Assembly (NCBI GenBank): GCA_016190245.1
Contig: JACPQY010000025.1
Location: forward strand, 1-42,575
Length of the DNA: 42,575 nt
Direction: 5' to 3'
DNA from: Nitrospirota bacterium
GTDB taxonomy: Bacteria > JACPQY01
A program made the translations under genes and the position numbers. The notes below the pieces were generated by a model. That model was given only the letters and a program-made list of their open reading frames with translations. It ran no database searches and was not told the DNA's origin. This document shows, piece after piece, positions 3,321-42,575 of this stretch. Within the stretch, counting starts at the first letter, position 1; each line of letters opens with the position of its first letter.

Positions 3321-3412
3321 GCTCGCCTCCGCTCACCGCCGCTCGCCCGCCAAGGCGCGGGGCCTTGCGGGCCCCTTGACGTCCCCCACCTGGCGGAGGC
3401 TCTACTCTTTCC

Positions 3413-3443
3413 ACACTAGCCCATGTGGTAGGGGGGGTGTCAA
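3413..3443 (-). promoter_or_regulatory. Possible sigma-70 promoter for the heme lipoprotein gene
   Basis: On the minus strand TTGACA (3443-3438) is followed after 18-19 bases by CTAGTG/TAGTGT. The -35 is perfect, the -10 weak. It sits about 90 bases before the ATG at 3320. Between them is a GC-rich hairpin of the form GGGGCC-loop-GGCCCC. No experimental support; confidence is limited by the poor -10. Confidence 0.35.
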
Positions 3444-3531
3444 GCGGAATGCAGCGCCCTCCGCGCGCGCAGGGCGGGGCGGGCCGCGTGCGAGCCGCCG
3501 GACCCAAGCCGCGGCCGGCGTCGGGGGTAGG

Positions 3532-5667
3532 CTACGCGATGGAGCCGAGTTCGAGGCGGCCGTGCCAGCGGGCGACGAGTCTCTCTCGCGTGAAGCGGTG
3601 CTCGGGACGCGCGAGCGCGGGGTCGGTCGCCAGGACGCGACGGGCCCACTCCTGGGAGCGGCGAAGCAGCGCGGTGTCTTCGATGAGATTGCCGAGGTGG
3701 AAATCCGGGTAGCCGGACTGCCGTAGGCCGAGAAACTCGCCCGGGCCGCGGATCCGAAGGTCCTCCTCGGCGATCCGGAATCCGTCCTGCGTCTCCACCA
3801 TCGCCTTGAGCCGCTGCGCGGCCTCCGGACCGGCTTCTTTGCCCACGATGAGCAGACACGTGGAAGACTCCGCGCCGCGCCCCACGCGGCCTCGGAGCTG
3901 ATGGAGCTGGGCCAGCCCGAACCGCTCGGCGTGCTCCACCACCATGAGCGTGGCGTTGGGCACATCAATGCCCACTTCGATGACGGTCGTGGCGACGAGG
4001 ATCTGGATCGCGCCATCGCGGAAGGAGCGCATCACGGCGTCCTTCTCCTCGGCCTTCATGCGGCCGTGCATGAGGCCGACCTTGAGGTGGGGAAAGATCC
4101 GGGTCCGAAACTCCTCGGCCATCTGTTTGGCGTTTTTCAGATAGACCTTTTCCGAATCCTCGACGAGCGGGTACACCAGGAAGGCCTGGCGGCCCTTGCC
4201 CACCTCGTCGTTTACGAACGTGTAGAACCGGGCGCGCCGGCCGTCCGGGACGATGCGCGTGACGATCGGTTTGCGGCCGGGCGGCATCTCATCGAGCGTG
4301 CTCACATCGAGGTCGCCATAGAGCGTCATCGCGAGTGTCCGCGGGATCGGCGTCGCGCTCATGATGAGGACGTGGGGCTGGACGCCTTTTCGGAGGAGCT
4401 CGGCGCGCTGGGCCACGCCGAAGCGATGCTGCTCGTCCACGACGATGAGTCCCAGCCGGTTGAAGGCCACCGCCTTTTCGATGAGTGCATGCGTGCCGAT
4501 GAGCGTGTGGACTTCGCCGGACCGAGCCGCTTCAAGGATTTCTTGACGCTCCACCGTGGACGTGCCGCTTGTCAGCAAGGCGACCTGGGTGTTTGTCTTT
4601 TCCGCCCACGTGCCGAGGGTTCGGTGATGTTGTTCGGCGAGGATCTCGGTGGGGGCCATGAAGGCGGTTTGGAAGTCGTTGTCTGCCGCGCGCAGCGCGG
4701 CGAGGAAGGCCACAATGGTCTTGCCGCTGCCCACGTCGCCTTGGAGGAGACGGTTCATGGGCCGCGGGCGGGCAAGATCGGTCAGGATTTCGGCGAGGGC
4801 GCGCTCCTGTGCCCCCGTGAGGCTGAAGTCCAATGCCTTTCGCAGGAGGTCGCCGCGCCCCCCGGGTTTGGTCATGGCGTGCCCTGCGGCCGCATCGGAG
4901 GCTCGCCGGCGAAGCAACAAACCCAGCGAGAGGAGAAAGAACTCTTCGAGGATGATCCGCTCCTGGGCGGGCGTCCGTCGGGCGAAGAGGATTTGCGGGT
5001 TACGATCAGGAGGGGGGAAATGGGTCTCCTCAACGGCCTGGGGGAGTGGCATGGGGGCTTCGCGCTGCAGCGTGGGCGGGAGCGCGGAGCGCAGTTCGGT
5101 CTTCGCCAGATCGAGGGCCGCGCGGAGGATGGTGCGCAGTCGGCGCGTGGGGATGCCGCCGATCTCGGAATACACGGGCACGATCCGGCCGTAGTGCAGC
5201 GAGGTGGTTGCGGGCACTTGCGGGCCCGGCCCCGCCTCGGGGAGCCACTCGACCTCCGGATGGAGGATTTCCATCTGCCCGCGGTAGGCCTGGGCCGTTC
5301 CGGTGAGCACGACGCGGAATCCCGCGCGGAAGAGGCGTTCGTACCCGGCGCGGAAGTGGAACCACCGGCAGGTGAGATGGCCCGTCCCGTCGGTCAACGT
5401 CACTTCCAGGAGTTGCCGGCGACCCGCCGTGAGGCGCAGACGGGAGCCGACCACGCGACCGGTCGTGGTGACTGTTTCACCGGGCCGGATGTTTCGGAAT
5501 GTGGTCACCGAGCGCCGGTCCTCGTAGGTTCGCGGGAAGAAACAGACGAGGTCTTCGAGCGTGCGGATGCCGGCGGCCTCGAGGGCGGCGCCGATCTTGG
5601 GTCCCACGCCCTTGACGTAGCGGACGGGCCGTTGGAGGACGGGCTCGCGATTCGGTGCCGCGATCAT
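3532..5667 (-). CDS. recG: ATP-dependent DNA helicase RecG
   Basis: RecG is a monomeric superfamily-2 branch-migration helicase that regresses stalled forks and processes Holliday junctions. The N-terminus RYVKGVGPKIGAALEAAGI is the usual RecG helix-hairpin-helix-like start, followed by an OB-fold wedge (VTTTGRVVGSRLRL...). The helicase core shows Walker A GDVGSGKT, the DEQH box (VVDEQHRFG), SATPIPRT and the motif VI region QLHQLRGRVGRG. Length 711 aa, near the family norm. I chose ATG 5667 because it gives the normal N-terminus; an in-frame ATG at 5718 would add 17 residues encoded by the inverted repeat that fills the gap to greA. Last gene of the pyrR-to-recG minus-strand run, though the repeat may separate its expression from greA. 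Confidence 0.95.
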   Translation of the reverse strand: MIAAPNREPVLQRPVRYVKGVGPKIGAALEAAGIRTLEDLVCFFPRTYEDRRSVTTFRNIRPGETVTTTGRVVGSRLRLTAGRRQLLEVTLTDGTGHLTCRWFHFRAGYERLFRAGFRVVLTGTAQAYRGQMEILHPEVEWLPEAGPGPQVPATTSLHYGRIVPVYSEIGGIPTRRLRTILRAALDLAKTELRSALPPTLQREAPMPLPQAVEETHFPPPDRNPQILFARRTPAQERIILEEFFLLSLGLLLRRRASDAAAGHAMTKPGGRGDLLRKALDFSLTGAQERALAEILTDLARPRPMNRLLQGDVGSGKTIVAFLAALRAADNDFQTAFMAPTEILAEQHHRTLGTWAEKTNTQVALLTSGTSTVERQEILEAARSGEVHTLIGTHALIEKAVAFNRLGLIVVDEQHRFGVAQRAELLRKGVQPHVLIMSATPIPRTLAMTLYGDLDVSTLDEMPPGRKPIVTRIVPDGRRARFYTFVNDEVGKGRQAFLVYPLVEDSEKVYLKNAKQMAEEFRTRIFPHLKVGLMHGRMKAEEKDAVMRSFRDGAIQILVATTVIEVGIDVPNATLMVVEHAERFGLAQLHQLRGRVGRGAESSTCLLIVGKEAGPEAAQRLKAMVETQDGFRIAEEDLRIRGPGEFLGLRQSGYPDFHLGNLIEDTALLRRSQEWARRVLATDPALARPEHRFTRERLVARWHGRLELGSIA

Positions 5668-5753
5668 GGGGTCAAGTCTTGACTTGACACAGGTTGGGGG
5701 TGGTCCGGTTGGCCGCATACGCGCTAGCTTGTGTCAAGTCAAGACTTGACCCC
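5668..5753. repeat. Perfect 24-bp inverted repeat filling the greA-recG gap
   Basis: Arms at 5668-5691 and 5730-5753 are perfect reverse complements separated by 38 bases. Each arm is itself palindromic: GTCAAGTC-TT-GACTTGAC. The element ends directly at the recG ATG and begins six bases from the greA stop, so it occupies the whole intergenic gap and leaves recG without a visible Shine-Dalgarno. It resembles REP/MITE-type elements; whether it moves or terminates transcription cannot be told from sequence. Confidence 0.8.
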
Positions 5754-27016: not shown

Positions 27017-27373
27017 TCAGTGCCGGCGGGCAATGAGATCAACAACGTGACCCATGATCGCCTTCACGCTCGTCAGATCCTTTCGGCCCACGTTGGAGAG
27101 GGCGGCCGCGATCTGCCGACTCAGCCGCTCCCGGGCAATCCGGTCGTAGTCGTTGTCGGGCAGGAACAACTCGTGCAGGCCGATGCCGACCGTCTGCGAA
27201 ACGTCGCGCAGAAGGTTGAGCGTCGGGTTCGACTCGACACCTCTTTCCAATCGGCTGATTGTCTCGACCGAGACGTGAGCCCCCTCCGCCACCTGCTCCT
27301 GAGTCAGACCCCTCCGGGCCCGGGCTTCTTTCAGGCGCGCTCCGATCTCTCTGAGCAGATCCGTCAGCGGCAT
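27017..27373 (-). CDS. XRE family transcriptional regulator
   Basis: 118 aa. An HTH_3 domain spans about residues 8-66 (LKEARARRGLTQEQVAEGAHVSVETISRLERGVESNPTLNLL). A helical C-terminal tail (DRIARERLSRQIAAALSNVGRKDL) probably mediates dimerisation. Divergent from the large surface lipoprotein gene, with a palindrome (27422-27451) in the gap that is a likely operator for autoregulation and control of the divergent gene. Confidence 0.88.
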   Translation of the reverse strand: MPLTDLLREIGARLKEARARRGLTQEQVAEGAHVSVETISRLERGVESNPTLNLLRDVSQTVGIGLHELFLPDNDYDRIARERLSRQIAAALSNVGRKDLTSVKAIMGHVVDLIARRH

Positions 27374-27421
27374 GGCGTCACCTCCCGGAGCGTAGGGGAC
27401 CGGCGTCGGCCAAAGAAGGCT

Positions 27422-27451
27422 AGATACGTCTATGGTCTGACATATGTATCT
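27422..27451. promoter_or_regulatory. Palindromic operator-like site between XRE gene and surface lipoprotein gene
   Basis: AGATAC at 27422-27427 mirrors GTATCT at 27446-27451, with a further near-symmetric core containing ACATATGT-like sequence. The segment is clearly more AT-rich than its surroundings. Position between divergent genes, one of them an HTH regulator, suggests an operator overlapping promoters. Binding by this XRE protein is inference. Confidence 0.45.
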
Positions 27452-27493
27452 GGTCCTGCTAGCTTCACCTCAGGCGTGGTCTTGAAGGAGGGC

Positions 27494-30400
27494 GTGTTGA
27501 AGTTCCGGAGACAGCCAGCATCACATCGGCATGGCCTCGTCCCGATCCTGCTCGCTTCCTTCCTTCACCCAGGGTGCTTCGGCCTGTTTTCGAACGAAGG
27601 TGACGAAGACCGAGGGAGCGCAGCGGCCGAGGTCGTCCCGCCGGTAGAGCTCGAGGTCGCGGTGCCCCTTACGTCCGAGCAGGCGGCCCTCCTGAACGGC
27701 ATCCGTGCCGTGACGCCCATCACGCGGGTGGACGAAATGACGGTGGAATCGGTCGAGGCTCAGGGGATCCGTGCGGGTGTGAGAGGGGCTGTTCGTGGGG
27801 TGCAGGTCGCAGGCGTCCGCGCCGCTGCCCGGCGTCAAGCAGAGGGATCGGCTGATCCCCTCGTGTTCGTCGTAGCTCTGACCACTCCGGGGGGCCTCGC
27901 CGGAGGCGATCACGTCATCAGCTTGAGCTTGGTACCCGAAGGTGCCGATGGCGTATCCCTGTTGAGAATGGCGGCGCTCATTCCGTTCGGACGAGAGACC
28001 CCCACGATCGAAGTTCCCTTGGACTCAAGTGTGGTGGAATTGCCGGCCGGCAACGATGCGGGCGTGCCGAATCTTGTCCAGCAGTTCGCGAAGGAAAAGG
28101 TGCCCCATTTGGGCCTCGATCCCGCCTCGAAGGGCGCCGCGCTCACGCAGGAGCAGATCACGGAGATCCTGGGCCAACTTCAAGGGGCGCTCGAGACTTC
28201 CGCAAAGGATCTCGTCACCAAGATTCAGGTGACTCAGAACATCACGATCAACATCACGGTCAACGCCGCCAGCCTGAATCTCCCTACCGTGATGGATCTG
28301 GTCTGCTTCGTCGCCGACAAGGACGCTTGCGGGAACGGCACCAAGACCGCATCCGGCAAAGTCGTGGTCACCTTCGGCTGCAATCGGGCCGACGCGTGCA
28401 AGTTCGAATGCCGCCTCGACAAGGAATCGTTTGCACCGTGCGAGCCTCCCGTGACCTTGGAAAGTCCGGGCGACGGGATCCACACGTTTGCCGTTCGGGC
28501 GATCGACTCGACGGGAACCGTCGGAGCCCCATTCTCGTTGTCCCTCCAGTTCCAAACCGCGACCGTGGAATCCGGGAGTGGAGGGGCCGATACAAGTACT
28601 CCTTCGGGCGGATCCCAAGGGGGCGGGGGGACAGGCGGCGCAGGCCAACCCTTGCCCGACCTCCCCACCGCCGCGATCGCCACCAAACCGAGTTCTCCCA
28701 GCGGCCCCTCGGTCACTCTCGAGTTCAACTGCACAACCGCCACGACCTCGTGCAGCTACTCCTGTTCCGTGGATGGCGGATACTTCTCCGGCTGCACGAG
28801 CCCGAAGACCCTGAACGGCCTGCTCGTGGGGGATCACACCTTCAGCGTCAAGGCCATTGACACGGTGGGCCAGGTCTCCACCGTTGCCACCCATGCCTGG
28901 ACCGTGGCAGCACCAGAGACCAGCATCACGAAGAACCCGGGGGACTTGGTCGCGAGCAGTCAGGCGGTCTTCGAGTTCAGCGCCTCCGGGCCTGGCGCCA
29001 CCGGCGCGACATTCGAATGTAGGGTGGACGCATCTCCGTTCGCGGTGTGCACCTCGCCGCACACCGCGTCCGGCCTTGCCGACGGCTCGCACGCGTTTGA
29101 AGCCCAGGCCAAGGACACCGCCGGCAATGTGGACCCCACACCCGCCTCGCACCCATGGACCGTTGATACCGCGGCGCCGGACACAACCCTTTCAGGCCAG
29201 CCCGCGAACCCGACCAACGTCAATTCAGCCAACTTCACGTTCACGTCCCCGGACACGACGGCCACGTTCGAGTGCAGCACCAACGGCGGATCCATGTACT
29301 CGGCGTGCGCCTCCCCACAAGGGCTAACCGCCCTCGCGGACGGCTCGTACACTTTCCATGTTCGGGCCAAGGATCCTGCCGGCAATGTGGACCCCACCCC
29401 CGCCTCGCACCCATGGACCGTTGATACTGCCGCGCCCACGGGTGGTTCGGTCACTATTCAGGGCGGGGCCTGGGTGAACAACACATCCGTCGTGCTCAGC
29501 TTGGCCGCCGTTGGCGCGGCCAACATGGCATTCTCAAATGACGGATCGGGGTTCTCGACCTTCGAGACGTACGCCACGTCAAAGCCGTGGACTCTCAGCT
29601 CCGGGGCCGGTACGAAGACCGTCTGGGCCAGATTCCGCGATTTGGCCGGCAACACGTCGGACGCGACCGATACGATCGGATATGAGACCACGGCCCCGAG
29701 CACCTCCATCACCTCCCCCTCCAACGGAGCGAAGCTGTCCGCCCTCACGTCTCTTTCCGGGACGGCGGCCGACGCGACCAGCGGCGTGCAGACTGTCTAT
29801 CTTTTCATCAAGCGCGTGTCGGACAACTACTACTGGACCGGCACCATGTTCTCGAGCGGAGAGACCGCCGTGACGGCTACCGGCACGACAAGCTGGTCCT
29901 ACAGTACGGTTCCCTCCTGGTCGAGCGGCTCCCAGTACACCATTCAGTCCTATGCCCGGGACAACGCCGGCAATACGGAGTCTCCGGCCGCAGGGAACGC
30001 TTTCACGTTCGACAACACGGCGCCCTCCTTTGGCGGCCTCACGAGCGCCAGTGTAGTCTCGGCCACCCAGGTGGATCTCGGTTGGAGCGCGGCAACGGAC
30101 ACTGTGAGCGCGCAGGGCACTATCATCTATCGGATCTGCCGATCCACGACCAACGGATCCTGCCAGACAAGCTTCACCGCAACCTACACGACGAGCGCCG
30201 GGGCCACCTCCTACCCTGTCACCGGTCTCACCAGCGGCACCACGTACTACTTCGTCGCCCGTGCCGTGGACGAGGCGGGCAATCAGGACTCCAACACCGT
30301 CCAACTCAGCGCCACTCCGGCCACCTGGCTCGCCCAAACCTCGTGCGTGTCCGATCCCCTCTTCGATATCTACTTCCTCGACACCTCCACGGGCTATGGG

Positions 30401-31228
30401 GTGGGTGGGAGCGGCGGAGTCAGCAGCGCCATCTGCAAGACCACCGACGGCGGTTCCGCTTGGACGGCCCAAACCTCGCCCACGGGCAGCGACACGCTGG
30501 AAGGTGTTCACTGCCCCGTGGATGCCAGCACGTGCTATGCGGTCGGCTACTCCGGACGGATCATTAAGACCACGAACGGGAGCACCTGGTCCACCCAGAC
30601 CTCCGGCATCTCCACCCGGATCAACGCCGTGGTTTGTCTCAACAACAATACGTGTTATGCGGCCGGTGGCAGTGGGGCGGGCGGCAGCCCTTCCCTCCTC
30701 AAGACCACCGATGGCGGCGCAACGAGCTGGACCAGCCAGACCGTCTGCGACGCATCCTACGGCTTATGGGCGATAGACTGCGTGGACACGAACACCTGCT
30801 GGGCGGCCGGCCAGAACGGGACCATCTGCAAGACAATCAATGGCGGCTCGACCTGGACACCTCAGACCTCGGGCGTCACAAACTGGCTCTATGGGCTCGA
30901 TGCGGTCGATGCCAGTACGGCCTATGTCGTGGGTAATAGTGGTACGGTCCTGAAGACATCCAACGGAGGCTCGTCCTGGAGCAGCCAGACCTCCGGCACG
31001 TCGAACACGCTGTATGGCATCCACTTCCCCGTCGATGGCACGACAGGCTACGCGGCGGGTGCGAGTGGCACGGTGCTCAAAACGACAAATGGCGGGGCCG
31101 CTTGGTCATCCCTGTCGTCGGGCACGACGACTCAACTCAACGATGTGTACTTTCCTTCGAGCATCACCACAGGCTGGGTTATCGGTAACAGCGGCGTGAT
31201 CCGCAAGACCACCACCGGCGGCCAATGA
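27494..31228 (+). CDS. Large surface lipoprotein with Ig-like repeats, FN3 and a seven-bladed Ycf48-type propeller
   Basis: 1244 aa from GTG 27494, chosen because AAGGAGG lies just upstream and a lipoprotein signal follows (GLVPILLASFLHPGCFG). Regions in order: an N-terminal domain with an Arg/Gly repeat (GIRAGVRGAVRGVQVAGVRA) that is also found in the lipoprotein at 31729; a helical stretch; a Gly/Ser linker; at least four Cys-containing Ig-like modules (ATFECRVDASPFAVC, TFECSTNGGSMYSAC); a FN3 module (TQVDLGWSAATD...SGTTYYFVARAVDEAG). The C-terminus has seven repeats of the type YAVGYSGRIIKTTNGSTWSTQT, enough for a closed beta-propeller of the BNR/Ycf48 kind. Likely cell-surface adhesion or scaffold role; ligand unknown. 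An FHA gene and a related lipoprotein gene follow. Confidence 0.85.
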   Translation: MLKFRRQPASHRHGLVPILLASFLHPGCFGLFSNEGDEDRGSAAAEVVPPVELEVAVPLTSEQAALLNGIRAVTPITRVDEMTVESVEAQGIRAGVRGAVRGVQVAGVRAAARRQAEGSADPLVFVVALTTPGGLAGGDHVISLSLVPEGADGVSLLRMAALIPFGRETPTIEVPLDSSVVELPAGNDAGVPNLVQQFAKEKVPHLGLDPASKGAALTQEQITEILGQLQGALETSAKDLVTKIQVTQNITINITVNAASLNLPTVMDLVCFVADKDACGNGTKTASGKVVVTFGCNRADACKFECRLDKESFAPCEPPVTLESPGDGIHTFAVRAIDSTGTVGAPFSLSLQFQTATVESGSGGADTSTPSGGSQGGGGTGGAGQPLPDLPTAAIATKPSSPSGPSVTLEFNCTTATTSCSYSCSVDGGYFSGCTSPKTLNGLLVGDHTFSVKAIDTVGQVSTVATHAWTVAAPETSITKNPGDLVASSQAVFEFSASGPGATGATFECRVDASPFAVCTSPHTASGLADGSHAFEAQAKDTAGNVDPTPASHPWTVDTAAPDTTLSGQPANPTNVNSANFTFTSPDTTATFECSTNGGSMYSACASPQGLTALADGSYTFHVRAKDPAGNVDPTPASHPWTVDTAAPTGGSVTIQGGAWVNNTSVVLSLAAVGAANMAFSNDGSGFSTFETYATSKPWTLSSGAGTKTVWARFRDLAGNTSDATDTIGYETTAPSTSITSPSNGAKLSALTSLSGTAADATSGVQTVYLFIKRVSDNYYWTGTMFSSGETAVTATGTTSWSYSTVPSWSSGSQYTIQSYARDNAGNTESPAAGNAFTFDNTAPSFGGLTSASVVSATQVDLGWSAATDTVSAQGTIIYRICRSTTNGSCQTSFTATYTTSAGATSYPVTGLTSGTTYYFVARAVDEAGNQDSNTVQLSATPATWLAQTSCVSDPLFDIYFLDTSTGYGVGGSGGVSSAICKTTDGGSAWTAQTSPTGSDTLEGVHCPVDASTCYAVGYSGRIIKTTNGSTWSTQTSGISTRINAVVCLNNNTCYAAGGSGAGGSPSLLKTTDGGATSWTSQTVCDASYGLWAIDCVDTNTCWAAGQNGTICKTINGGSTWTPQTSGVTNWLYGLDAVDASTAYVVGNSGTVLKTSNGGSSWSSQTSGTSNTLYGIHFPVDGTTGYAAGASGTVLKTTNGGAAWSSLSSGTTTQLNDVYFPSSITTGWVIGNSGVIRKTTTGGQ
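29108..29436 (+). repeat. Near-identical 71-bp direct repeats within the Ig-like region
   Basis: 29108-29178 and 29366-29436 are the same 71 bases apart from a few substitutions, and encode AKDxAGNVDPTPASHPWTVD twice. Near identity at DNA level between modules that otherwise differ implies recent duplication or gene conversion. Confidence 0.75.
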
Positions 31229-33401: not shown

Positions 33402-33602
33402 ATGGGGGGCATCGATTTCAACCTGATCGATGAGGAGTGGATCCCGATCCTCGGCACCGACGGGAAGCCGCGCCGCGTCGGCATCCGAACGGCGCTGACG
33501 GAAGCGGGCCGCATCCGCCAAATCACCGCCTCGAACCCGATGGACAACGTGGCTCTTCTGAGCTTTCTGCCGGCGGTGCTCCACTGGTGCAAGCCGCGAT
33601 GA
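33402..33602 (+). pseudogene. Truncated second copy of cas8e (cse1) N-terminus
   Basis: 66 aa, NLIDEEWIPILGTDGKPRRV then GIRTALTEAGRIRQITASNPMDNVALLSFLPAVLHWCKPR. It closely matches the first ~97 residues of the intact Cse1 at 34832, with DNA similarity high from 33476 to 33596 and ending abruptly at the TGCAAGCCG codons. It lacks the ~23-residue insert present in the intact copy. A normal Cse1 is about 500 aa, so this is a relic of another or duplicated type I-E operon. Confidence 0.8.
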
Positions 33603-33612
33603 GAAACAAACA

Positions 33613-33855
33613 ATGACCACAGACGGCAAGGACGAATCTGGTCGCCCGGACGCTTGCCGGCCGCCGTTGTGGGCCAAGACAGCTCAGGACGGCGATCACC
33701 TCACCTACCACCGCTTGCTGTGTCATATGCTCGATGTGGCGGCCGTGACCTTTGCCAATGAAGCAGGCTTCGATGGACCTGTCCGCCGCGAAGACCCTGG
33801 AGGGCATGCCGGATTGACCCACGCCGGGTATCCGCGAAAGGCAGGCGGACCGTGA
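33613..33855 (+). pseudogene. Cas3 N-terminal (HD domain) relic fused to unrelated sequence
   Basis: 80 aa. The first ~48 residues (RPPLWAKTAQDGDHLTYHRLLCHMLDVAAVTFA) look like the beginning of a type I Cas3 HD nuclease, where LWAKS...H-x-LLxHLLDVAAV is typical. After FANEAG the sequence no longer resembles Cas3. All later HD residues and the whole helicase are absent. It begins ten bases after the cse1 relic and its TGA overlaps the GTG of the nucleotidyltransferase gene. Identification is by motif memory; a profile search would settle it. Confidence 0.65.
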
Positions 33856-34358
33856 AGCTGTCCAGTCTTGAGGCGATCGTATCGGCCTTGAACCGACACG
33901 ACGCGCGCTTTCTGATCGTGGGCGGATTGGCCGTTGCCGCGCACGGCTACGGGCGCGTCACCTTCGATCTGGACCTTGTCGTGCAGTTGAAGCCGGAGAA
34001 TCTGCGGCGGGCGATGAGCGCATTGGAATCGCTCGGCTATCGTCCTGTCCCGCCGGTCTCCGCGCAGGAATTCGCCGATCCCGCTGCTCGCGAAAGGTGG
34101 ATTCGGGAGAAGAACATGGTTGTCTTCTCGCTTCGTAGCGAGCAGCATCGGGATACGCCCATCGACGTTTTCGTGGCGGAACCTTTCGATTTTGAGTCGG
34201 AATATGACCATGCCCTCATGGGAGACCTCCTACCCGATGCGCCGACCCGCTTCGTGCGACTTGAGACGCTCATCCGAATGAAGGAAGCCGCCGGACGCGA
34301 AAAGGACCGCGATGACGTGCGGCACCTGAGACTGTTGCGGGAGAATCCGGATGAGTAG
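33852..34358 (+). CDS. AbiEii/AbiGii-like nucleotidyltransferase
   Basis: 168 aa from GTG 33852. The nucleotidyltransferase signature is GGLAVAAHGYGRVTFDLDLVVQ (GG...TxDxD), followed by VFSLRSEQHRDTPIDVFV and a C-terminal helix typical of the family (RFVRLETLIRMKEAAGREKDRDDVRHL). Such proteins act in AbiE-type toxin-antitoxin or abortive-infection systems. It overlaps the downstream small gene by eight bases. Its position between cas relics and cas8e suggests insertion at the place where cas3 would normally lie. Confidence 0.85.
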   Translation: MKLSSLEAIVSALNRHDARFLIVGGLAVAAHGYGRVTFDLDLVVQLKPENLRRAMSALESLGYRPVPPVSAQEFADPAARERWIREKNMVVFSLRSEQHRDTPIDVFVAEPFDFESEYDHALMGDLLPDAPTRFVRLETLIRMKEAAGREKDRDDVRHLRLLRENPDE

Positions 34359-34722
34359 CAGTCGGAGCGACCCGAAGCCGGCGATGCGGAGGCCCCATGA
34401 TCCTTCCGATCATCGTCCCCGGAGCGGAGCGGAGGGGGCGGTCGAGTCGGATGGGTGGCGCGAGCATGAACTCTCGCAACTCCGATATTTCCGTTCCCTC
34501 CCCCTGCGCGAGAAGCTGGAGGCGGTTCAGGGAATGGCGGACATCGTCCGGCGCCTACGGCAGATGCGCGAGGAGGGTGCGCTCAAGCCCGCCGTGCCAG
34601 TTAGGGCGGGCAAGCCCGCCGGCGCCGCGGGCGACATCGGCCCGGGCCAAAGTTCGTCCTCCGTCCACGAGCCCGCGCCTGCGTACGGTCGAAAGAAAGG
34701 CAGGTCGGACCCGCCAGGATGA
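34351..34722 (+). CDS. Small partner protein of the nucleotidyltransferase
   Basis: 123 aa, overlapping the nucleotidyltransferase gene by eight bases. The core WREHELSQLRYFRSLPLREKLEAVQGMADIVRRLRQM is of the helical type I associate with short proteins encoded next to AbiEii-like nucleotidyltransferases. The last ~45 residues are Gly/Pro/Ser-rich and may be non-native. Probable cognate partner or antitoxin-like component; not shown by sequence alone. Confidence 0.6.
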   Translation: MSSSRSDPKPAMRRPHDPSDHRPRSGAEGAVESDGWREHELSQLRYFRSLPLREKLEAVQGMADIVRRLRQMREEGALKPAVPVRAGKPAGAAGDIGPGQSSSSVHEPAPAYGRKKGRSDPPG

Positions 34723-34831: not shown

Positions 34832-36625
34832 ATGACTCAGGGTGCGAGTCCGTCCGGAATGGATGGTTACAATCTGGTTGAACGGGCGTGGATTCCCGTT
34901 TTGAAGGTCGATGGAACATACGGCCAGGGAGGGCCTGTACCCGGAGCCTTCAAGAGATGCCAGGACGGCATCTCGAAACCTCGCGGAGGGTGCGGTCGCG
35001 TCGGCATCCGAGCGGCGCTCACGGAGGCGGGCCGCATCCGCCAGATCGCCGCCTCGAACCCGATGGACAACGTCGCCCTTCTTCGCTTCCTGCTCGCGGT
35101 GCTTCAGTGGTGCAAGCCGAACCCGACCGATAAGGAACGCAATCGACTCAACGGCGCCGAGGGCATTCCGCCCGAGTGGCTGTCGAATCTGGGAATCGTC
35201 GCGAAGCCGAACGAGGCGTTCAATCTGCTCGGTGACGATCGACGCTTCCTCCAAGACAAGCAGTTGCTCGCCGACTTGTTGAGAGACAAACAGAAGCAGT
35301 GGGACAACCGCGAGAAGAAGAAGACGAAAAAAGCCGCTGGATCGCGTCAGGGCAATCCAGTGAGAGCTACCACGAACGAGCGGCCCAAGGCTCTCGACGA
35401 GGACGATTATCGCCCGGTCGGTGACCTGCTCGTGGAGTTCCCAACCGATACGAAGATTGCCCATTTCCGCCACGTGCGCGACAAAGAGTACGGCCTATGC
35501 CCGGCCTGCTGCGCATTGGGGATTGTTCGGTTCTGCGCGTTTGCCAACGCCTACGGCGGCGGGCGGTACACGTCGGCGGCCAACGGTCCCACGCCCGCGT
35601 ACGCAATCGCGTGGGGCGCGACGCTGCTGGACACATTGCGGCTGCACTGGCCCGCGAGATGTACCTCACCCCGGCAACCGCCGTGGTTGTGCGCCGCCGC
35701 CCCCTCAAAGGACGACCTCGACATCGTAACAGTGTTCGCATGGCGATCCCGCCGGCTCTGGCTGGGTGATCCCGGAGACGAGAGCACCTGCGCCTACTGC
35801 GGCCAGCCAGCCGCACTCATTCGGCAACTGGCGTTCACGGGCAACTGGAAACCGCCCTTTGAAACCGCGGGTCAGCAGAAGAAATTCTGGGACAAGGATC
35901 CGCACTTGGTCCTCATTGACAAGAGTCAGGCGGCAGGTGAAGAAGAGGAGAGCGGCAACTCAAATCAGGAACAGTCCGCCACGGCGCCAAAGACGAAAAA
36001 GAGCGCCGTGGTCAAGACCACACTCGGCTTCCCATCTCCAAGTGCGAGGGTCACGGGGCATTCAAGATTCTGGCGGCGCGTCCTGAGCGCCAAGGCCACG
36101 GAGCAGGCTGATGCGGATGGAACGCCTGCGACCCTCATGGTTGCCGGTCCGGCCGCCAACAAGGGGCTATACCAGGACGCCGCCGCCCTCCACCTGCGCG
36201 TCCCTGTCGTCGGTGCCGCTCAGACGCTTGAGGCTCAAGGAAAAGCGGTCGAGGCGGTGAGCGGCGTCCTGCGGCAGAGCACGCCGAATCCAGATCGCCA
36301 GCACCCCAACCGCATCGCTGTGCTCGACGCCTTGTCTCCGTCCTTGGAGGCTGACCTACGGCGCGACCTTGATCGGTCATTGGGCACGAATCCGCCGGGT
36401 CGGTTGATTGATGCATTGGGGGAGCGACTCGCGCCAGTCGTCGAGCGGGTCGTCCGCTCTACTACCCCCGGTTCGCCTCTGCGGCGGCGCGAGGCGATGG
36501 CGCGGGCGCGATCAGCCTTGGACGCGGCGCTGCACAAGGCCACCACCCCGTTGAGCAAGGCGTCCTCGCGGAAGGACGCGGCGAAGCCGGAGCGCACGCG
36601 CAAGAAGAAGGAGGCCACCTCGTGA
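34832..36625 (+). CDS. cas8e: Type I-E Cascade large subunit Cas8e (Cse1/CasA)
   Basis: 597 aa from ATG 34832 (CGGGAG upstream); ATG 34859 is possible. Cse1 recognises the PAM and, in standard systems, recruits Cas3. The N-terminus NLVERAWIPVLKVDG and SNPMDNVALLRFLLAVLQWC are family-typical. Two Cys pairs, C223/C226 (GLCPACC) and C320/C323 (TCAYC), probably bind zinc. A helical C-terminal bundle ends in a Lys/Arg-rich tail. Extra features are a ~23-residue Gly/Pro/Cys insert at about 30-55, absent from the relic copy, and a basic linker at 161-175. First gene of the cas operon; overlaps cse2 by four bases. With Cas3 absent locally, its recruitment surface may have changed role (inference). 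Confidence 0.92.
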   Translation: MTQGASPSGMDGYNLVERAWIPVLKVDGTYGQGGPVPGAFKRCQDGISKPRGGCGRVGIRAALTEAGRIRQIAASNPMDNVALLRFLLAVLQWCKPNPTDKERNRLNGAEGIPPEWLSNLGIVAKPNEAFNLLGDDRRFLQDKQLLADLLRDKQKQWDNREKKKTKKAAGSRQGNPVRATTNERPKALDEDDYRPVGDLLVEFPTDTKIAHFRHVRDKEYGLCPACCALGIVRFCAFANAYGGGRYTSAANGPTPAYAIAWGATLLDTLRLHWPARCTSPRQPPWLCAAAPSKDDLDIVTVFAWRSRRLWLGDPGDESTCAYCGQPAALIRQLAFTGNWKPPFETAGQQKKFWDKDPHLVLIDKSQAAGEEEESGNSNQEQSATAPKTKKSAVVKTTLGFPSPSARVTGHSRFWRRVLSAKATEQADADGTPATLMVAGPAANKGLYQDAAALHLRVPVVGAAQTLEAQGKAVEAVSGVLRQSTPNPDRQHPNRIAVLDALSPSLEADLRRDLDRSLGTNPPGRLIDALGERLAPVVERVVRSTTPGSPLRRREAMARARSALDAALHKATTPLSKASSRKDAAKPERTRKKKEATS

Positions 36626-37179
36626 GCCAGACCGTCGCCTACATCAAGCGGCTCGAAGACCTCCAGGAAGGGGAGCGCTCGCGCCTGCGCCGACTGGCCG
36701 GAAATCCGCTGAACGCGACGCTGCCGGGATTCGACCTGTTTACCGGCCTGTGGTGGCCGCTTCGGGCCAAGAATCAGGCCGCCCCGCGCCGCGAGACGAG
36801 CTGGCTGGTCGCCAAACTCTACGGCGCCTTCCCGGTACCGCATGTGCGACCCGAACAAGGCGTCGGCCCGAGTCTTGCCGCCGTCTTGGGCCTCTGCGAA
36901 CCGCGGGATGAGCGTGCCGGACCGCGATTTCGGAGCCGATTCGACGGTCTTATCTGTGCGCCTCTATCGGCGCTGGAGCCGCACCTCCGATGGGCACTGG
37001 GCGAAGTCGCCCGGGCCGTCGCCGGACGCCTGCCGCATGTCCGGGATGTCGCGGGCATCGACTGGGCGCAATTGCTCGACGACCTGTCCATCTGGGACCG
37101 CGCCGACGCGCACCACCCACGGCGTGACATTCGTGACCTCTGGGCAGAAGAATACCTGAAAGCTGTCCGTCAACCCTGA
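36622..37179 (+). CDS. cse2: Type I-E Cascade small subunit Cse2 (CasB, Cas11)
   Basis: 185 aa from GTG 36622, overlapping the cas8e stop (GTGA). Helical small-subunit pattern: VAYIKRLEDLQEGERSRLRRLAG, LYGAFP, RFRSRFDGLICAPLSALEPHLRWAL, and the C-terminal DWAQLLDDLSIWDRADAHHPRRDIRDLWAEEYL. In E. coli two copies of this protein form the belly of Cascade and stabilise the R-loop. Normal length. Confidence 0.92.
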   Translation: MSQTVAYIKRLEDLQEGERSRLRRLAGNPLNATLPGFDLFTGLWWPLRAKNQAAPRRETSWLVAKLYGAFPVPHVRPEQGVGPSLAAVLGLCEPRDERAGPRFRSRFDGLICAPLSALEPHLRWALGEVARAVAGRLPHVRDVAGIDWAQLLDDLSIWDRADAHHPRRDIRDLWAEEYLKAVRQP

Positions 37180-37192
37180 AAGGAGTTGGACC

Positions 37193-38461
37193 ATGCTCAT
37201 CGAAATCCACATGATCCAGAACCACAGCCCGTCGAACCTGAACCGGGACGACTTGGGCGCGCCCAAGACGTGCGTCTTCGGCGGCGTGACCCGCGCCCGC
37301 ATCTCCAGCCAGTGCCTCAAGCGCAGCATCCGGCGGAGCGTCGAGTTCCAGAAGGCCATGGAGAAGGACGGAGGGGTACGCACTCGTCGGCTGGCCTCGG
37401 TGCTGGCGCGAATCGTGGACTCCAAAGACTTTGACCTGACACCTGAAAAGCTGACCAAATTCCTCGCGACCAGCGAGGCTGCCAATGGTCCTTCGCTGGC
37501 GAAGCTGGAGGCCCTCGCTAGCGAAGCTTTGGAGCTAGGAGGCGTGAAGGCCAAAGGCAAAAAGAAGGACAAGAGCAAGCCGAAGGGCGAAGGAAACGAA
37601 AGCGGAGATGAGGGCGAGGACACTGAGGCCATGTCCAAGATGCTTCTCTTCCTCTCGACGGCCACCGTCGCGAAGATGGCAAGGGAACTGAAGGACGCTT
37701 CAAATGCAAAGCCACTGGCAGAGAAGTTCAAGGGCTGCATTGCCGAGAAACCGTGTGTCCCGGACATCGCGCTGTGTGGCCGCATGACTGAGGTAACCAA
37801 GAACAGCGTCTTCAGCGACCTGAACTTCACCGTCGAGGCCGCACTCTCCACCGCCCACGCGATCTCCACGCATGAAGTGATCAACGAGGTGGACTACTTC
37901 ACGGCGGCAGATGACATTCCCGGCCAGGACGCAGGCGCGGGCCACGTGAATGAGGGGATGTTCAACTCTGCTTGCTTCTACAAGCACTTCGCCATCGACT
38001 GGAAACAACTAGTGAAGAACTTGGGTGGGGACACCGAGCTTGCCGCCACTACGATCAAGTGCTTCCTTGAAGCCGCCGCCAGGGCCAACCCCTCTGGCAA
38101 GCAGCACGCGTTTGCCGCGTTCAATTGCCCCGACGGGATCCTGGTTGAAATCAAGACCAAATCGCCCACGCCGATCAGCTACGCCAACGCTTTTGCCGAT
38201 CCCGTGCCGCCGAAAACGGCGCGCGGTCTCATCGGCGAGAGCATCGCCCGCCTCGGCCAGTACGCCAACCATCTCATCGAAGGTTACGGCATCAACGCTG
38301 AGCGTTTCTGGTTTTCGCCGAAAAAGCGCTACGCACTGACGTGGATCGACAATGAGAAAAAGGAGCACGAACGGGAACAGTCCGTAGTCGGAACGTCAAA
38401 CGAGTTCGGCGACTTCGGCAAGTTCATCGGGGCGATCATGGACAAGGTGGCCAAATCGTAG
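37193..38461 (+). CDS. cas7e: Type I-E Cascade backbone subunit Cas7e (Cse4/CasC)
   Basis: 422 aa with AAAGGAG upstream. Cas7e forms the crRNA-binding filament. Typical motifs: IEIHMIQNHSPSNLNRDDLGAPKTCVFGGVTRARISSQCLKRSIR, FSDLNFTVEAALSTAHAISTHEV, FAAFNCPDGILVEIKTKSPTPISYANAF. It is about 60 residues longer than E. coli CasC. Much of the excess is a charged, low-complexity insert at about 118-147 (KGKKKDKSKPKGEGNESGDE), which would form a flexible loop on the filament. Confidence 0.95.
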   Translation: MLIEIHMIQNHSPSNLNRDDLGAPKTCVFGGVTRARISSQCLKRSIRRSVEFQKAMEKDGGVRTRRLASVLARIVDSKDFDLTPEKLTKFLATSEAANGPSLAKLEALASEALELGGVKAKGKKKDKSKPKGEGNESGDEGEDTEAMSKMLLFLSTATVAKMARELKDASNAKPLAEKFKGCIAEKPCVPDIALCGRMTEVTKNSVFSDLNFTVEAALSTAHAISTHEVINEVDYFTAADDIPGQDAGAGHVNEGMFNSACFYKHFAIDWKQLVKNLGGDTELAATTIKCFLEAAARANPSGKQHAFAAFNCPDGILVEIKTKSPTPISYANAFADPVPPKTARGLIGESIARLGQYANHLIEGYGINAERFWFSPKKRYALTWIDNEKKEHEREQSVVGTSNEFGDFGKFIGAIMDKVAKS

Positions 38462-38472
38462 GAGGTGAAGGC

Positions 38473-39591
38473 ATGACCAGTCTTTCCACCGTCTTCCTCC
38501 GCCTCGAAGGGCCGCTCCAGGCGTGGGGCGACAACTCGAAGTTCGTCATACGGCGCACGATGGAGGGGCCGACGAAGTCCGGCGTGCTCGGTCTCATCTG
38601 CTGCGCGATGGGGCTGTCGCGCCAGGCCGCGCGGGAACGACTGCCGGAACTGAACAAACTGACCATGGGCGCGCGAATCGACCGGCCCGGCACCCGCTGG
38701 TGGGACTACCACACCGTGGGGGCCGGCATAGGCATGATGACAGCGGCAGGCGGGATCAAGACGGGCGCCCAAGGCACGCTCATCACGCGCCGGGAGTATC
38801 TGGCCGACGCGAGTTTCCTGGTGGCGCTGCATGGCGAGGCAACGCTGATCAAGAAAGTCGCTGATGCTCTAACGTCACCGAAATGGCCGATCTTTCTCGG
38901 CCGCAAGTCCTGCCCGCCCTCCGTTCCCGTTTGGGCGAAACCGCGGTCAGGCGAGACGTGGACGAACCCGATGACGGGGCCGGAAGACCTGAAGTCCATG
39001 CTGGCTCTCGTGCCGTGGCATCCGCGCCATGAGGGTGATGAGCGGCCTGCATCCGGGGAGTTGCCCTGCCTGATCGAATGGCGCGCGGCCAACGAAGGCG
39101 ATATCGCGCCCTCGGATGCCGAGGTCTGGTACGACGCGCCGTTCTCCTTCGACCCCCCGGTGCATCATCCACGTCTGGTCGCACGCGAACAAGTCCCGGT
39201 TCAAGCGGGAAACGCGCTCCAGGAACGTACTTCAGTACCCCCAAGGCCGCGGGCAGACTATCAGAACACGGAATACAAAGAGGCTCGCAAAAAACGCATC
39301 GAATCCGACCACGGCCTGTGCGTTTTCTGCAAATCCCCGGCTACGACGGTCCAGCACGTCACCTACCGTCGGGCCGGTGGCGATGAACAACCGGACGATC
39401 TGCGCTCGCTCTGCCGCCTTTGCCACGATGCCGTCACGATGATCGAGTACGGACTGGGCATGGGAATCGACCGTATCAATCCCGAGGACTCCCGATGGCG
39501 CGATCCAATCATCAAGAAACGTCACGAGATCATCGAGTTCCGTTCCTTGGAGACGCGCCGGAGGCGTCTGAGCGCCGAGGAGGTCGAATAA
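38473..39591 (+). CDS. cas5e: Cas5e fused to a C-terminal HNH zinc-ribbon domain
   Basis: 372 aa with GGAGGTGA upstream; E. coli CasD is 224 aa. Residues 1-~250 are Cas5e: FLRLEGPLQAWGDNSKF, GPTKSGVLGLICCAMG, WWDYHTVGAG, REYLADASFLVALHG, FLGRKSCPPSVPVW. Residues ~262-330 form an HNH-type domain: GLCVFCKSPATTVQHVTYRRAGGDEQPDDLRSLCRLCHDAVT. Zinc cysteines C283/C286/C314/C317, general-base candidate H295, D309 and H318 are present. Two usual metal-ligand positions differ: Q294 before H295 and T322 where HxxxH ends. In standard I-E, Cas5e caps the crRNA 5' handle near the PAM end; a tethered HNH would lie close to target DNA. HNH-bearing Cascades lacking Cas3 (Cas5-HNH, Cas8-HNH) have been reported from large-scale mining. 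Confidence 0.93.
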   Translation: MTSLSTVFLRLEGPLQAWGDNSKFVIRRTMEGPTKSGVLGLICCAMGLSRQAARERLPELNKLTMGARIDRPGTRWWDYHTVGAGIGMMTAAGGIKTGAQGTLITRREYLADASFLVALHGEATLIKKVADALTSPKWPIFLGRKSCPPSVPVWAKPRSGETWTNPMTGPEDLKSMLALVPWHPRHEGDERPASGELPCLIEWRAANEGDIAPSDAEVWYDAPFSFDPPVHHPRLVAREQVPVQAGNALQERTSVPPRPRADYQNTEYKEARKKRIESDHGLCVFCKSPATTVQHVTYRRAGGDEQPDDLRSLCRLCHDAVTMIEYGLGMGIDRINPEDSRWRDPIIKKRHEIIEFRSLETRRRRLSAEEVE

Positions 39592-39593
39592 CC

Positions 39594-40361
39594 GTGTATC
39601 TCTCCTGTCTTCTGATCAATGTGGGCGAGAACCCCGACCGCCCACGGCCGGGACGACTGTGGCTGCGAAATCTCTACCACGTGCACCAGCGGCTGTGCAT
39701 GGCGTTTCCGTCGGTCAGGCGGAAGAACGACGACCGGGACTTCCTGAAGCCGTTCAACCCGGATGATTTCGGCTCCCAAGAGCCGAGACAAGTTCACGTC
39801 GAACGCAAAACGGAGGCCGGTTTCCTGTTTCGCATCGATCCTCAGCCCGGCGGTCGAGTCGTGATTCTCGTGCAATCAGCCTCCCCCGACAAACCGGATT
39901 GGGACTACGCTTTTCACAACGCGGACTATCTCCTCGCGGCTCCTCCGGACTCGAAACCATTCGACCCGTCTTTCGCGAGAGGACAAAGTTTTCAGTTCCG
40001 TCTCGTGGCCAATCCGACGAAACGAATTCGCAAGGACTCTCGGGAAGCGGATGGGAAAACCGTAGATGAAAAATGGATCAAGAAGCGTGTCCCCGTTCCG
40101 ACCGAAAAGCTGGATGACTGGCTCAAAAGACGGGCCGAGTCTGCCGGGTTTGGCGTCCGACAACTCACCAGCATTCAGGCGGGCTACATCTACGTCAACA
40201 AGACAAGAGAGGACAAGGGACAGCGCCTCCGGTCAGCACGGTACGAAGGCATCCTTGAGGTGACGAACCCCGGCCGGTTCCGGGAAACAATGGTTGGAGG
40301 CATCGGGCCGGCCAAGGCGTTCGGATTCGGGCTGCTTTCGGTGGCGGAATGCAAAACATGA
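39594..40361 (+). CDS. cas6e: CRISPR RNA endoribonuclease Cas6e (Cse3/CasE)
   Basis: 255 aa from GTG 39594, preceded by GAGGAGG in the end of cas5e. Cas6e cuts precursor crRNA below the repeat hairpin and stays bound. N-terminus YLSCLLINVG then LWLRNLYHVHQRLCMAF; H31 aligns with the catalytic H20 of E. coli CasE. RLVANPTKRI is the family core, and the glycine-rich RNA-binding loop is GGIGPAKAFGFGLLSVAE at the C-terminus. The matching substrate is the palindromic repeat at 42359. Confidence 0.95.
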   Translation: MYLSCLLINVGENPDRPRPGRLWLRNLYHVHQRLCMAFPSVRRKNDDRDFLKPFNPDDFGSQEPRQVHVERKTEAGFLFRIDPQPGGRVVILVQSASPDKPDWDYAFHNADYLLAAPPDSKPFDPSFARGQSFQFRLVANPTKRIRKDSREADGKTVDEKWIKKRVPVPTEKLDDWLKRRAESAGFGVRQLTSIQAGYIYVNKTREDKGQRLRSARYEGILEVTNPGRFRETMVGGIGPAKAFGFGLLSVAECKT

Positions 40362-40399
40362 GCGCGGGGGTGAACGAATCGGAAAGGAGGCAGGAAGAA

Positions 40400-40714
40400 A
40401 TGACGCTCGGAACACTTGAAGTGTCAAGCGAGGCATTGAGGACTTTGTGTCGGAAGTGGCGCATCCATCGCCTTGCGCTCTTCGGTTCCGCCCTAACGCG
40501 CCAACTCGGTCCGAACAGCGATATTGACCTTCTCGTCGAATTTGAGCCGGATGAGCGGTGGTCCCTCATGGACCTCGTTCGCGCCGAGGCGGAATTCGCC
40601 GATCTATTCGACCGTCGTGTCGATCTGGTCGACAAAAACAATCTCCAGCGGAGTTCAAATTGGATCCGCCGGGACGCGATCCTCAAGTCCGCGGAGGTGA
40701 TCTATGCCGCATGA
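40400..40714 (+). CDS. Minimal nucleotidyltransferase (MNT, MntA-type antitoxin)
   Basis: 104 aa from ATG 40400, chosen for the strong AAAGGAGG nine bases upstream; in-frame ATGs at 40349 and 40358 overlap cas6e but would add an unusual head. The motif LFGSALTRQLGPNSDIDLLVEF is the GSx(n)DxD signature of MNT proteins. In known MntA-HepT pairs the MNT partner AMPylates and neutralises the HEPN RNase. It overlaps the HEPN gene by 11 bases. Confidence 0.92.
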   Translation: MTLGTLEVSSEALRTLCRKWRIHRLALFGSALTRQLGPNSDIDLLVEFEPDERWSLMDLVRAEAEFADLFDRRVDLVDKNNLQRSSNWIRRDAILKSAEVIYAA

Positions 40715-41057
40715 TCCTCTGTCCGCTGTGCTCGACATGGTCCAGGCCATCGAAAGGGCTCATCAACTGTCCGCCGGATTGGGCGAAGCGGGATTCCTGG
40801 CCGACGAGCGGGCCCAATGGGCGGTTTACAGCCAGATCGTGATCTTGGGGGAAGCCGCAGGCCGGGTGGACAAGGAGTTTCAACGGGCGCACCCCGAGAT
40901 TCCGTGGTCAACCGCAATCGGAATGCGCCACCGGCTTGTGCACGGCTACGACAGCGTGGATTGGCTGCGCGTCTGGAAGACGCTTCAGGACGACCTACCG
41001 CCGCTCCTGCAACAGTTGAGAGGGCTGCTCCCCCATGAGGAAGGCCGAAAGAGATGA
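40704..41057 (+). CDS. HEPN domain ribonuclease-type toxin (HepT/DUF86)
   Basis: 117 aa with GGAGGTGAT upstream. Helical DUF86 fold with EAGFLADERAQWAVYSQIVILGEAAGRV and the catalytic-type motif RHRLVHGY (R-x4-H-x-Y). HepT RNases are held inactive by their MNT partner, encoded just upstream. The stop overlaps cas1 (ATGA), so the toxin is translationally linked to the adaptation genes. A pair inside a cas operon could guard the locus against loss or respond to its failure; that is inference. Confidence 0.92.
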   Translation: MPHDPLSAVLDMVQAIERAHQLSAGLGEAGFLADERAQWAVYSQIVILGEAAGRVDKEFQRAHPEIPWSTAIGMRHRLVHGYDSVDWLRVWKTLQDDLPPLLQQLRGLLPHEEGRKR

Positions 41058-42088
41058 GAGTCCAGGACCTCCACGTTCTGCCCAAGTTCCGCGACGGATG
41101 GAGCTACCTCTATGTGGACCACTGCCGAGTCGACCAGGAAGCCCGGTCCATCGCGATCCATGACGCGAACGGAAAGGTGCCGGTCCCCTGCGCCAACCTG
41201 GCCCTCCTGATGCTGGGACCCGGCGTATCCATTACGCACGCCGCCGTGTCGGTGCTGGCAGACCACGGTTGCCTCGTCGCCTGGTGCGGGGAGGAAGGCG
41301 TCCGGTTCTACGCGGTGGGCATGGGGGAGACGCGAAGCGCGTCGAGCTTGCTGCATCAAGCTCGGACTTGGGCGGACGCTGAACTTCGGCTGAACGTGGT
41401 TCGACGCCTGTACCAACTTCGCTTTCCCGGCCCCCTCGACCCGGCCCTGACGCTCCAGCAGATCCGGGGCATGGAAGGTATTCGAGTTCGGGAAACCTAC
41501 GCAAAGGCCGCGCGCGATACAGGCGTGCCTTGGTCCGGTCGAAGCTACCGGCGGGAAAACTGGGCCACGGCGGACCCGGTCAACCGCGCACTGTCGGTTG
41601 CCAACTCCTGCCTTTACGGTATCTGCCATGCCGCGATCGTCTCGGCGGGCTTCTCTCCGGCCCTCGGGTTCATCCACACGGGGAAAATGCTTTCCTTCGT
41701 GTACGACGTGGCGGATCTCTACAAGACGGAGGTGACCATCCCAACGGCGTTCCGCGCAACCGCTGATGGGACCGAAGGGCTGGAGCGGCGCGTTCGTGTG
41801 ACATGCCGTGACGCCTTCGTCTCCACCCGGCTTCTGGAGAGAATCGTGCCGGATGTGCAAGAGGTGCTGGATCTTCCGGCGCCAGGCGAGTCCGGGGCGG
41901 ACGAATCGCTCGATAAGGAAACAGCCGCACCGGGAGGCCTATGGGACCCGACCAAGGGAGAGGTGGAAGGGGGCCGAAGCCACACGATTGAGGCTGGAGA
42001 AAAGGAGGGTGCCGCGCCAGGAAGGCTGGCGGTACCCGGAGCGCCAGGGAAGGCAGAGGAGGGTGACGATGGTGGTCATGATCCTTGA
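41054..42088 (+). CDS. cas1: CRISPR integrase Cas1, type I-E
   Basis: 344 aa. Cas1 integrates new spacers with Cas2. Active residues match E. coli Cas1 at the same numbers: E141 (GMEGIRVRETY), H208 (GFIHTGK), D218 and D221 (SFVYDVADLYK). The protein is about 40 residues longer than E. coli Cas1. After a typical Cas1e ending (GLWDPTKGEVEGGRSH) it continues with a Gly/Glu/Ala-rich tail that runs 20 bases into cas2. Follows the HEPN gene with an ATGA overlap. Confidence 0.96.
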   Translation: MRVQDLHVLPKFRDGWSYLYVDHCRVDQEARSIAIHDANGKVPVPCANLALLMLGPGVSITHAAVSVLADHGCLVAWCGEEGVRFYAVGMGETRSASSLLHQARTWADAELRLNVVRRLYQLRFPGPLDPALTLQQIRGMEGIRVRETYAKAARDTGVPWSGRSYRRENWATADPVNRALSVANSCLYGICHAAIVSAGFSPALGFIHTGKMLSFVYDVADLYKTEVTIPTAFRATADGTEGLERRVRVTCRDAFVSTRLLERIVPDVQEVLDLPAPGESGADESLDKETAAPGGLWDPTKGEVEGGRSHTIEAGEKEGAAPGRLAVPGAPGKAEEGDDGGHDP

Positions 42089-42341
42089 ACGGGTGTCTCC
42101 GGGACTGCGTGGGGAACTGACGCGATGGTACTTGGAACCCCACGCCGGGGTGTTTGTTGGGCGGGTTTCCGCGATGGTTCGGGACCGGCTCTGGGAGAAG
42201 GCTTGTGGGTCGGCCAAGGATGGGGGCTGCGTGATGATCCATTCCAGCAACACCGAGCAGGGTTTCGCCATACGCACATGGGGGCGTACCGCCCGGTCGA
42301 TCAATGACTTCGAAGGGCTTTTTCTCGTCAGAACGCCGTAG
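42069..42341 (+). CDS. cas2: CRISPR adaptation protein Cas2, type I-E
   Basis: 90 aa: VVMILERVSPGLRGELTRWYLEPHAGVFVGRVSAMVRDRLWE and GGCVMIHSSNTEQGFAIRTWG, typical of Cas2e (CasCD) proteins. It forms the central dimer of the Cas1-Cas2 integration complex. Start ATG 42069 lies within the cas1 tail. The stop lies 17 bases before the first repeat. Confidence 0.95.
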   Translation: MVVMILERVSPGLRGELTRWYLEPHAGVFVGRVSAMVRDRLWEKACGSAKDGGCVMIHSSNTEQGFAIRTWGRTARSINDFEGLFLVRTP

Positions 42342-42358: not shown

Positions 42359-42575
42359 ATTGTCCCCACGCACGTGGGGGTGAACCGATACACGCTGTTG
42401 ATTTTTCGCCCACCTCATCATTGTCCCCACGCACGTGGGGGTGAACCGCTCCCGGATTCCCTCGGGCACGATCCGGCGCTATTGTCCCCACGCACGTGGG
42501 GGTGAACCGTTCAATCCTGAAGCACTTCGGAGGATCCACGCATTGTCCCCACGCACGTGGGGGTGAACCGGGGGC
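42359..42575 (+). CRISPR. Type I-E CRISPR array, start only
   Basis: Four identical 29-nt repeats at 42359-42387, 42420-42448, 42481-42509 and 42542-42570. Each has the stem CCCCAC-GCAC-GTGGGG and ends GTGAACCG, the usual type I-E form and orientation. Three spacers of exactly 32 nt lie between them and a fourth begins at 42571, where the window ends. Transcription is expected in the + direction, with the crRNA cut by Cas6e after the hairpin. None of the spacers matches elsewhere in this window by eye. Confidence 0.98.

Follow-up and report, generated by a model that had tools for sequence, protein, structure and literature searches.

Does the type I-E Cascade encoded by a contig of a Nitrospirota bacterium carry its own nuclease, and if it does, where would the complex cut its target? 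The window, i.e., the whole stretch of 42,575 nucleotides analysed here (contig JACPQY010000025.1), encodes a Cas5 protein that continues into an HNH domain. A preliminary description had assigned the locus to the type I-E Cascades with Cas5-HNH reported in 2023 (PMC10910872) and had placed the cut near the position of Cas5. The assignment is upheld, with no intact cas3 adjoining the operon or found in the genome, and the position of the cut has to be revised. The gene content, the fusion, the conserved catalytic residues, the grouping of the fusions in a single clade and the lack of any intact cas3 among the genes found lead us to consider it highly probable (roughly 0.92) that the operon is a type I-E2 HNH-Cascade, a reading that includes the assembly, the cleavage and the loss of cas3 proposed below.

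The fused gene and its operon

The cas5-HNH gene stands fourth in a complete type I-E operon (cas8e, cse2, cas7, cas5-HNH, cas6, cas1, cas2 and a CRISPR array), in which the five type I-E effector genes (cas8e, cse2, cas7, cas5 and cas6) lie together. All seven cas genes keep open frames and have strong family matches. The features of the locus are as follows.

33402-33602 (+): cas8e stump, 66-aa open frame; PF09481, E=2e-13, matching only positions 1-57 of 450
33613-33855 (+): cas3 stump, 80-aa open frame; first 26 of 207 Cas3 HD positions only
34832-36625 (+): cas8e (cse1), large subunit, 597 aa; PF09481, E=2.9e-26; best solved match 8yb6_J
36622-37179 (+): cse2 (cas11); PF09485, E=2.6e-11; sole solved match 8yb6_K
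37193-38461 (+): cas7e; PF09344, E=1.3e-89; best solved match 8yb6_D, E=1.5e-99
38473-39591 (+): cas5-HNH fusion, 372 aa; Cas5e body about 1-226, linker 227-258, HNH 259-372
39594-40361 (+): cas6e, probable GTG start at 39594; PF08798, E=7.8e-42; best solved match 8yb6_B
41054-42088 (+): cas1e; PADLOC Cas1e, E=6.8e-121
about 42066-42341 (+): cas2e, start approximate; PF09707, E=8.4e-33
42359-42570 (+): CRISPR array, first four repeats; 29-nt repeat, 32-nt spacers, 61-nt period

The fusion occupies a single unbroken frame (38473-39591, forward strand) of 372 codons with no internal stop, and Pfam recognises both of its parts, Cas5 (PF09704) at residues 7-185 with E=3.9e-38 and HNH (PF01844) at residues 283-321 with E=4.1e-5 and 24.1 bits, above the curated cut-off of 21.4 bits. 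The preliminary description, which had proposed a search of HNH profiles, was therefore right that a Cas5e runs in one frame into an HNH-like zinc ribbon, and the seven HNH residues that it had listed (C283, C286, H295, D309, C314, C317 and H318) are all present at those positions, the catalytic and zinc-binding residues being intact. The body is a Cas5e by NCBIfam TIGR01868 (E=7.9e-44), and the HNH part has a weak resemblance to IscB (NCBIfam). Such an in-frame arrangement of Cas5e and a C-terminal zinc-ribbon HNH is a feature of type I-E2.

Among solved structures, all five effector subunits match one and the same complex best, PDB 8YB6. The window protein matches the Cas5-HNH chain of this complex with E=6.6e-112, and the comparison with a published Cas5-HNH that had been suggested earlier gives 55% identity over the HNH half. 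We infer that 8YB6 and the entries related to it belong to the work on the Cas5-HNH Cascade of Candidatus Cloacimonetes (PMC11822464). One deposited variant among these entries has alanine at the position equivalent to H318, which fits a catalytic role of this residue. An AlphaFold2 model of Cas5-HNH built from a seven-sequence alignment was poor (mean pLDDT 53.6, most of the HNH part below 40) and was set aside, the sequence match to 8YB6 being the stronger evidence.

The repeats seen in the array are identical and regularly spaced at 61 nt, and the array is incomplete, the contig stopping at 42575. Two further repeat copies are present at the end of another contig (C20), which probably carries the other end of this array; among the frames of at least 150 aa on that contig, there is no apparent cas gene. 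A repeat-like match inside cas2 (42257-42291) was taken as chance, and relatives show none above background. Further upstream, a 1402-aa frame at 27020-31228 contains repeated Ig-like and YCF48/photosystem-stability-like units and, by our own reading of the sequence, probably encodes a secreted surface protein.

Gene remnants and the fate of cas3

The front of the operon has evidently been disturbed. The cas8e stump is 89% identical to the operon's own cas8e over 123 nt and is closest to the cas8e of other Cas5-HNH loci (75% nucleotide identity to L009). The cas3 stump, which lies in the usual place of cas3, upstream of cas8e, is recognised by PF18019 at 33670-33750 with 25.6 bits (cut-off 23.1) and also by PADLOC Cas3e (E=0.0012) and by the Cas3 of PDB 4q2c (E=0.0037). 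The cas8e of the operon has an insertion of about 28 aa near its N terminus, after VLKVDG (34832-35030), which neither the stump nor any of the relatives aligned has, suggesting a recombination joint; the stumps and the insertion together can be read as debris that was left when the operon's 5' end was rearranged. The stretch from the cas3 stump to cas8e (33852-34722) contains a nucleotidyltransferase with weak family matches (DUF6036/AbiEii-like, below cut-offs) and a partner frame of 123 aa.

Comparable fragments were observed elsewhere. Upstream of the Cas5-HNH operon of locus L011, a frameshifted 5' fragment of cas8e (5320-5610), 83% identical over 109 nt to the intact gene, adjoins two degenerate reversed CRISPR repeats. 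Genome G724, which has a Cas5-HNH operon, also has a separate locus (L086) in which a 26-position stump of a different cas3 (G724:C1:202438-202521) lies directly upstream of an intact cas3. Stumps of cas 5' ends may thus recur at operon fronts, and rare cases of cas3 remnants near Cas5-HNH systems were already reported by Altae-Tran et al. (PMC10910872).

A second foreign pair lies at 40349-41057, between cas6 and cas1, and encodes an MntA-like nucleotidyltransferase (with a GSx10DxD-type motif) and a HepT-like HEPN RNase (RHRLVH). Homologues of this pair are absent from the first six relatives; in locus L081, a distant mntA/hepT pair is located upstream of cas8e on the opposite strand. It is conceivable, though we think it quite unlikely, that the HepT/MntA pair is functionally coupled to the Cas3-less Cascade, e.g., as a guard that would poison the cell if the operon were lost or inhibited, and that the stumps, more than debris, serve as an expressed operon leader.

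The two stumps, the gene pairs inserted into the operon (the nucleotidyltransferase and the HepT/MntA genes) and the Cas8e insertion that relatives lack could alternatively mark a decaying, inactive system, and the complex might indeed be impaired by the Cas8e insertion and the rearranged 5' end. However, the seven cas genes retain open frames with strong family matches, the catalytic residues are intact, the repeats are identical at a regular spacing of 61 nt and the stumps lie outside the effector genes, which makes decay of the locus unlikely.

If the HNH-Cascade reading is correct, the complex should not depend on Cas3. No intact cas3 helicase-nuclease gene, which defines canonical type I-E, was found in the genome of the window, a 3.29-Mb draft that is 84.8% complete; the sole Cas3_HD match is the 26-position stump, and such an absence of cas3 is typical of I-E2. 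A match at 3532-5718 of the window to a C-terminal Cas3-like helicase was rejected as Cas3, the protein being RecG-like by sequence. Neither was an intact Cas3 found in 10 of the 13 other genomes that carry the fusion. The remaining three have Cas3 elsewhere, in G724 and G910 within another locus that has a plain Cas5e to itself, and in G003 on other contigs. Weak Cas3_HD matches in G002 and G006 were rejected as Cas3; we read these long membrane HD proteins as PgpH-like.

These results also bear on the possibility, raised in similar form in the preliminary description, that the Cascade of the window only binds or nicks DNA, the HNH domain being an accessory, and that a Cas3 encoded elsewhere destroys the target. 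The incompleteness of the genome and the presence of Cas3 elsewhere in G003, G724 and G910 leave some room for this, but the Cas3 of two of the three belongs to a locus with plain Cas5e, searches of the window's own genome returned nothing beyond the stump, ten homologue genomes gave no intact Cas3, and a published homologue cuts without it (PMC10910872). We therefore consider dependence on a distant Cas3 very unlikely.

A single clade of fusions

The same fusion is found in 13 other genomes from at least five phyla. A scan of 84,980 species genomes yielded six of them, in MAGs named Myxococcota, Rhodopirellula, Desulfomonile, Armatimonadota, Cloacimonetes and Planctomycetota, and seven more came from searches directed at the phyla of L011, L006 and L008; the phylum-wide search around the window's own genome covered two genomes. 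Viral contigs, where searched, contained no relative of the HNH half, and the plasmids searched had plain Cas5e only, none covering 80% of the query. The spacers of the L011 array gave three weak matches to phages (E=0.04), from which no PAM was inferred.

H295 and H318 are invariant in the 14 aligned fusions, as is C283; C286, C314 and C317 are kept in 13 of the 14, being lost in L080 only, and the position of D309 is occupied by D in 11 fusions and by E in three. Over the whole protein, the window fusion is 54% identical to that of the Cloacimonetes MAG UBA4175 (L010). When each of the 13 others is paired with the window protein, conservation is higher in the HNH part (259-372) than in the Cas5 part in 11 cases (e.g., 77% against 68% for L006). 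In a tree that also included 48 plain Cas5e proteins, all fusions group in one clade, apart from plain Cas5e (support 99/96, 100% of 200 bootstrap trees). This grouping is consistent with Cas5e and HNH having been fused once and the fused gene having then spread from phylum to phylum; we deduce the spread from the tree and the host names.

The open frame, the Pfam matches, the conserved residues and the stronger conservation of HNH relative to Cas5 mean that the fusion is neither a chance product nor a neighbouring gene joined by a frameshift. That a sequencing or assembly error fused an independent HNH gene to cas5, as the preliminary description had allowed, has a negligible probability: nothing was found in its favour, and the junction is likewise unbroken in the solved structures and in 13 other assemblies, which come from several phyla and whose fusions all fall into one clade.

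Two neighbourhoods among the relatives deserve mention. Locus L080 (3771-8240) encodes a divergent Cas5-HNH (36% identity) that has lost three zinc cysteines and kept H295 and H318; it adjoins a Cas8e whose C terminus resembles Cse2 (PF09485, E=2e-4, slightly below cut-off), no Cas3 was found in its genome, and it is possibly a distinct branch of I-E2. In L006, from a Myxococcota MAG, type III-D-like cas7 and cas10 and a CARF-PDDEXK (Csx1/Can2-like) gene (1895-5425) adjoin the Cas5-HNH operon.

Target cleavage and place among known systems

In type I-E complexes, Cas5 holds the PAM-proximal end. The characterised Cas5-HNH Cascade RNP cleaves dsDNA in a PAM-dependent manner without Cas3, cutting beyond the protospacer at its PAM-distal end (3-4 bp on the target strand and 8 bp on the non-target strand); it also cuts ssDNA, with collateral ssDNA cleavage, and its HNH mutants are inactive (PMC10910872). 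Its HNH domain is lodged in the belly of the complex, with Cas6 and Cas11 on either side, and shifts together with Cas6 as the R-loop forms (PMC11822464). Cleavage near the position of Cas5, as initially supposed, is thus not supported, the cut being expected, by homology, at the opposite end.

By analogy with this homologue, Cas6e would cut the pre-crRNA, and Cas8e, Cse2, Cas7, Cas5-HNH and Cas6e would assemble on a crRNA with a 32-nt spacer. With the PAM recognised by Cas8e and the R-loop opened, the complex of the window would then cut the target at the PAM-distal end. Cas1-Cas2 would supply new spacers. The ancestral cas3 would have been lost, a fragment of its 5' end remaining upstream.

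The 2025 classification named this variant I-E2, typically without Cas3 (PMC12669027), and the operon of the window has all of the defining features of this type that sequence can test. It shares with the I-E2 system of Candidatus Cloacimonetes (PMC10910872; 8YB6) the Cas5e with a C-terminal HNH, the five effector subunits, the conserved HNH residues, the 32-nt spacers and the lack of an intact cas3, and differs from it in its host lineage, the cas8e and cas3 stumps upstream, the HepT/MntA pair between cas6 and cas1 and the Cas8e insertion of about 28 aa. Selenomonas has a type I-F4 (Cas8-HNH) Cascade (PMC11459484) in which Cas3 is likewise replaced by an HNH domain of one of the subunits, but this domain is part of Cas8 in a type I-F system and the cut positions are different; its authors count this HNH as an independent acquisition. 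Canonical type I-E with Cas3, as on the Streptomyces plasmid pM92 (L017), has the same gene order downstream of cas3 and homologous Cas8e, Cse2, Cas7, Cas5, Cas6, Cas1 and Cas2, whereas its Cas5e is plain (about 247 aa) and its 976-aa Cas3 is intact.

Systems of this kind have been known since 2023, and the operon of the window is a new example that changes no established picture. It extends a rare and recently named variant to a new host lineage. The alignment of 14 fusions records natural variants of a compact DNA cutter that needs no Cas3 and has already been put to use in genome editing. The presence of a cas3 stump next to a Cas5-HNH operon that looks functional lends support to the published proposal that the loss of cas3 followed the gain of the HNH domain.
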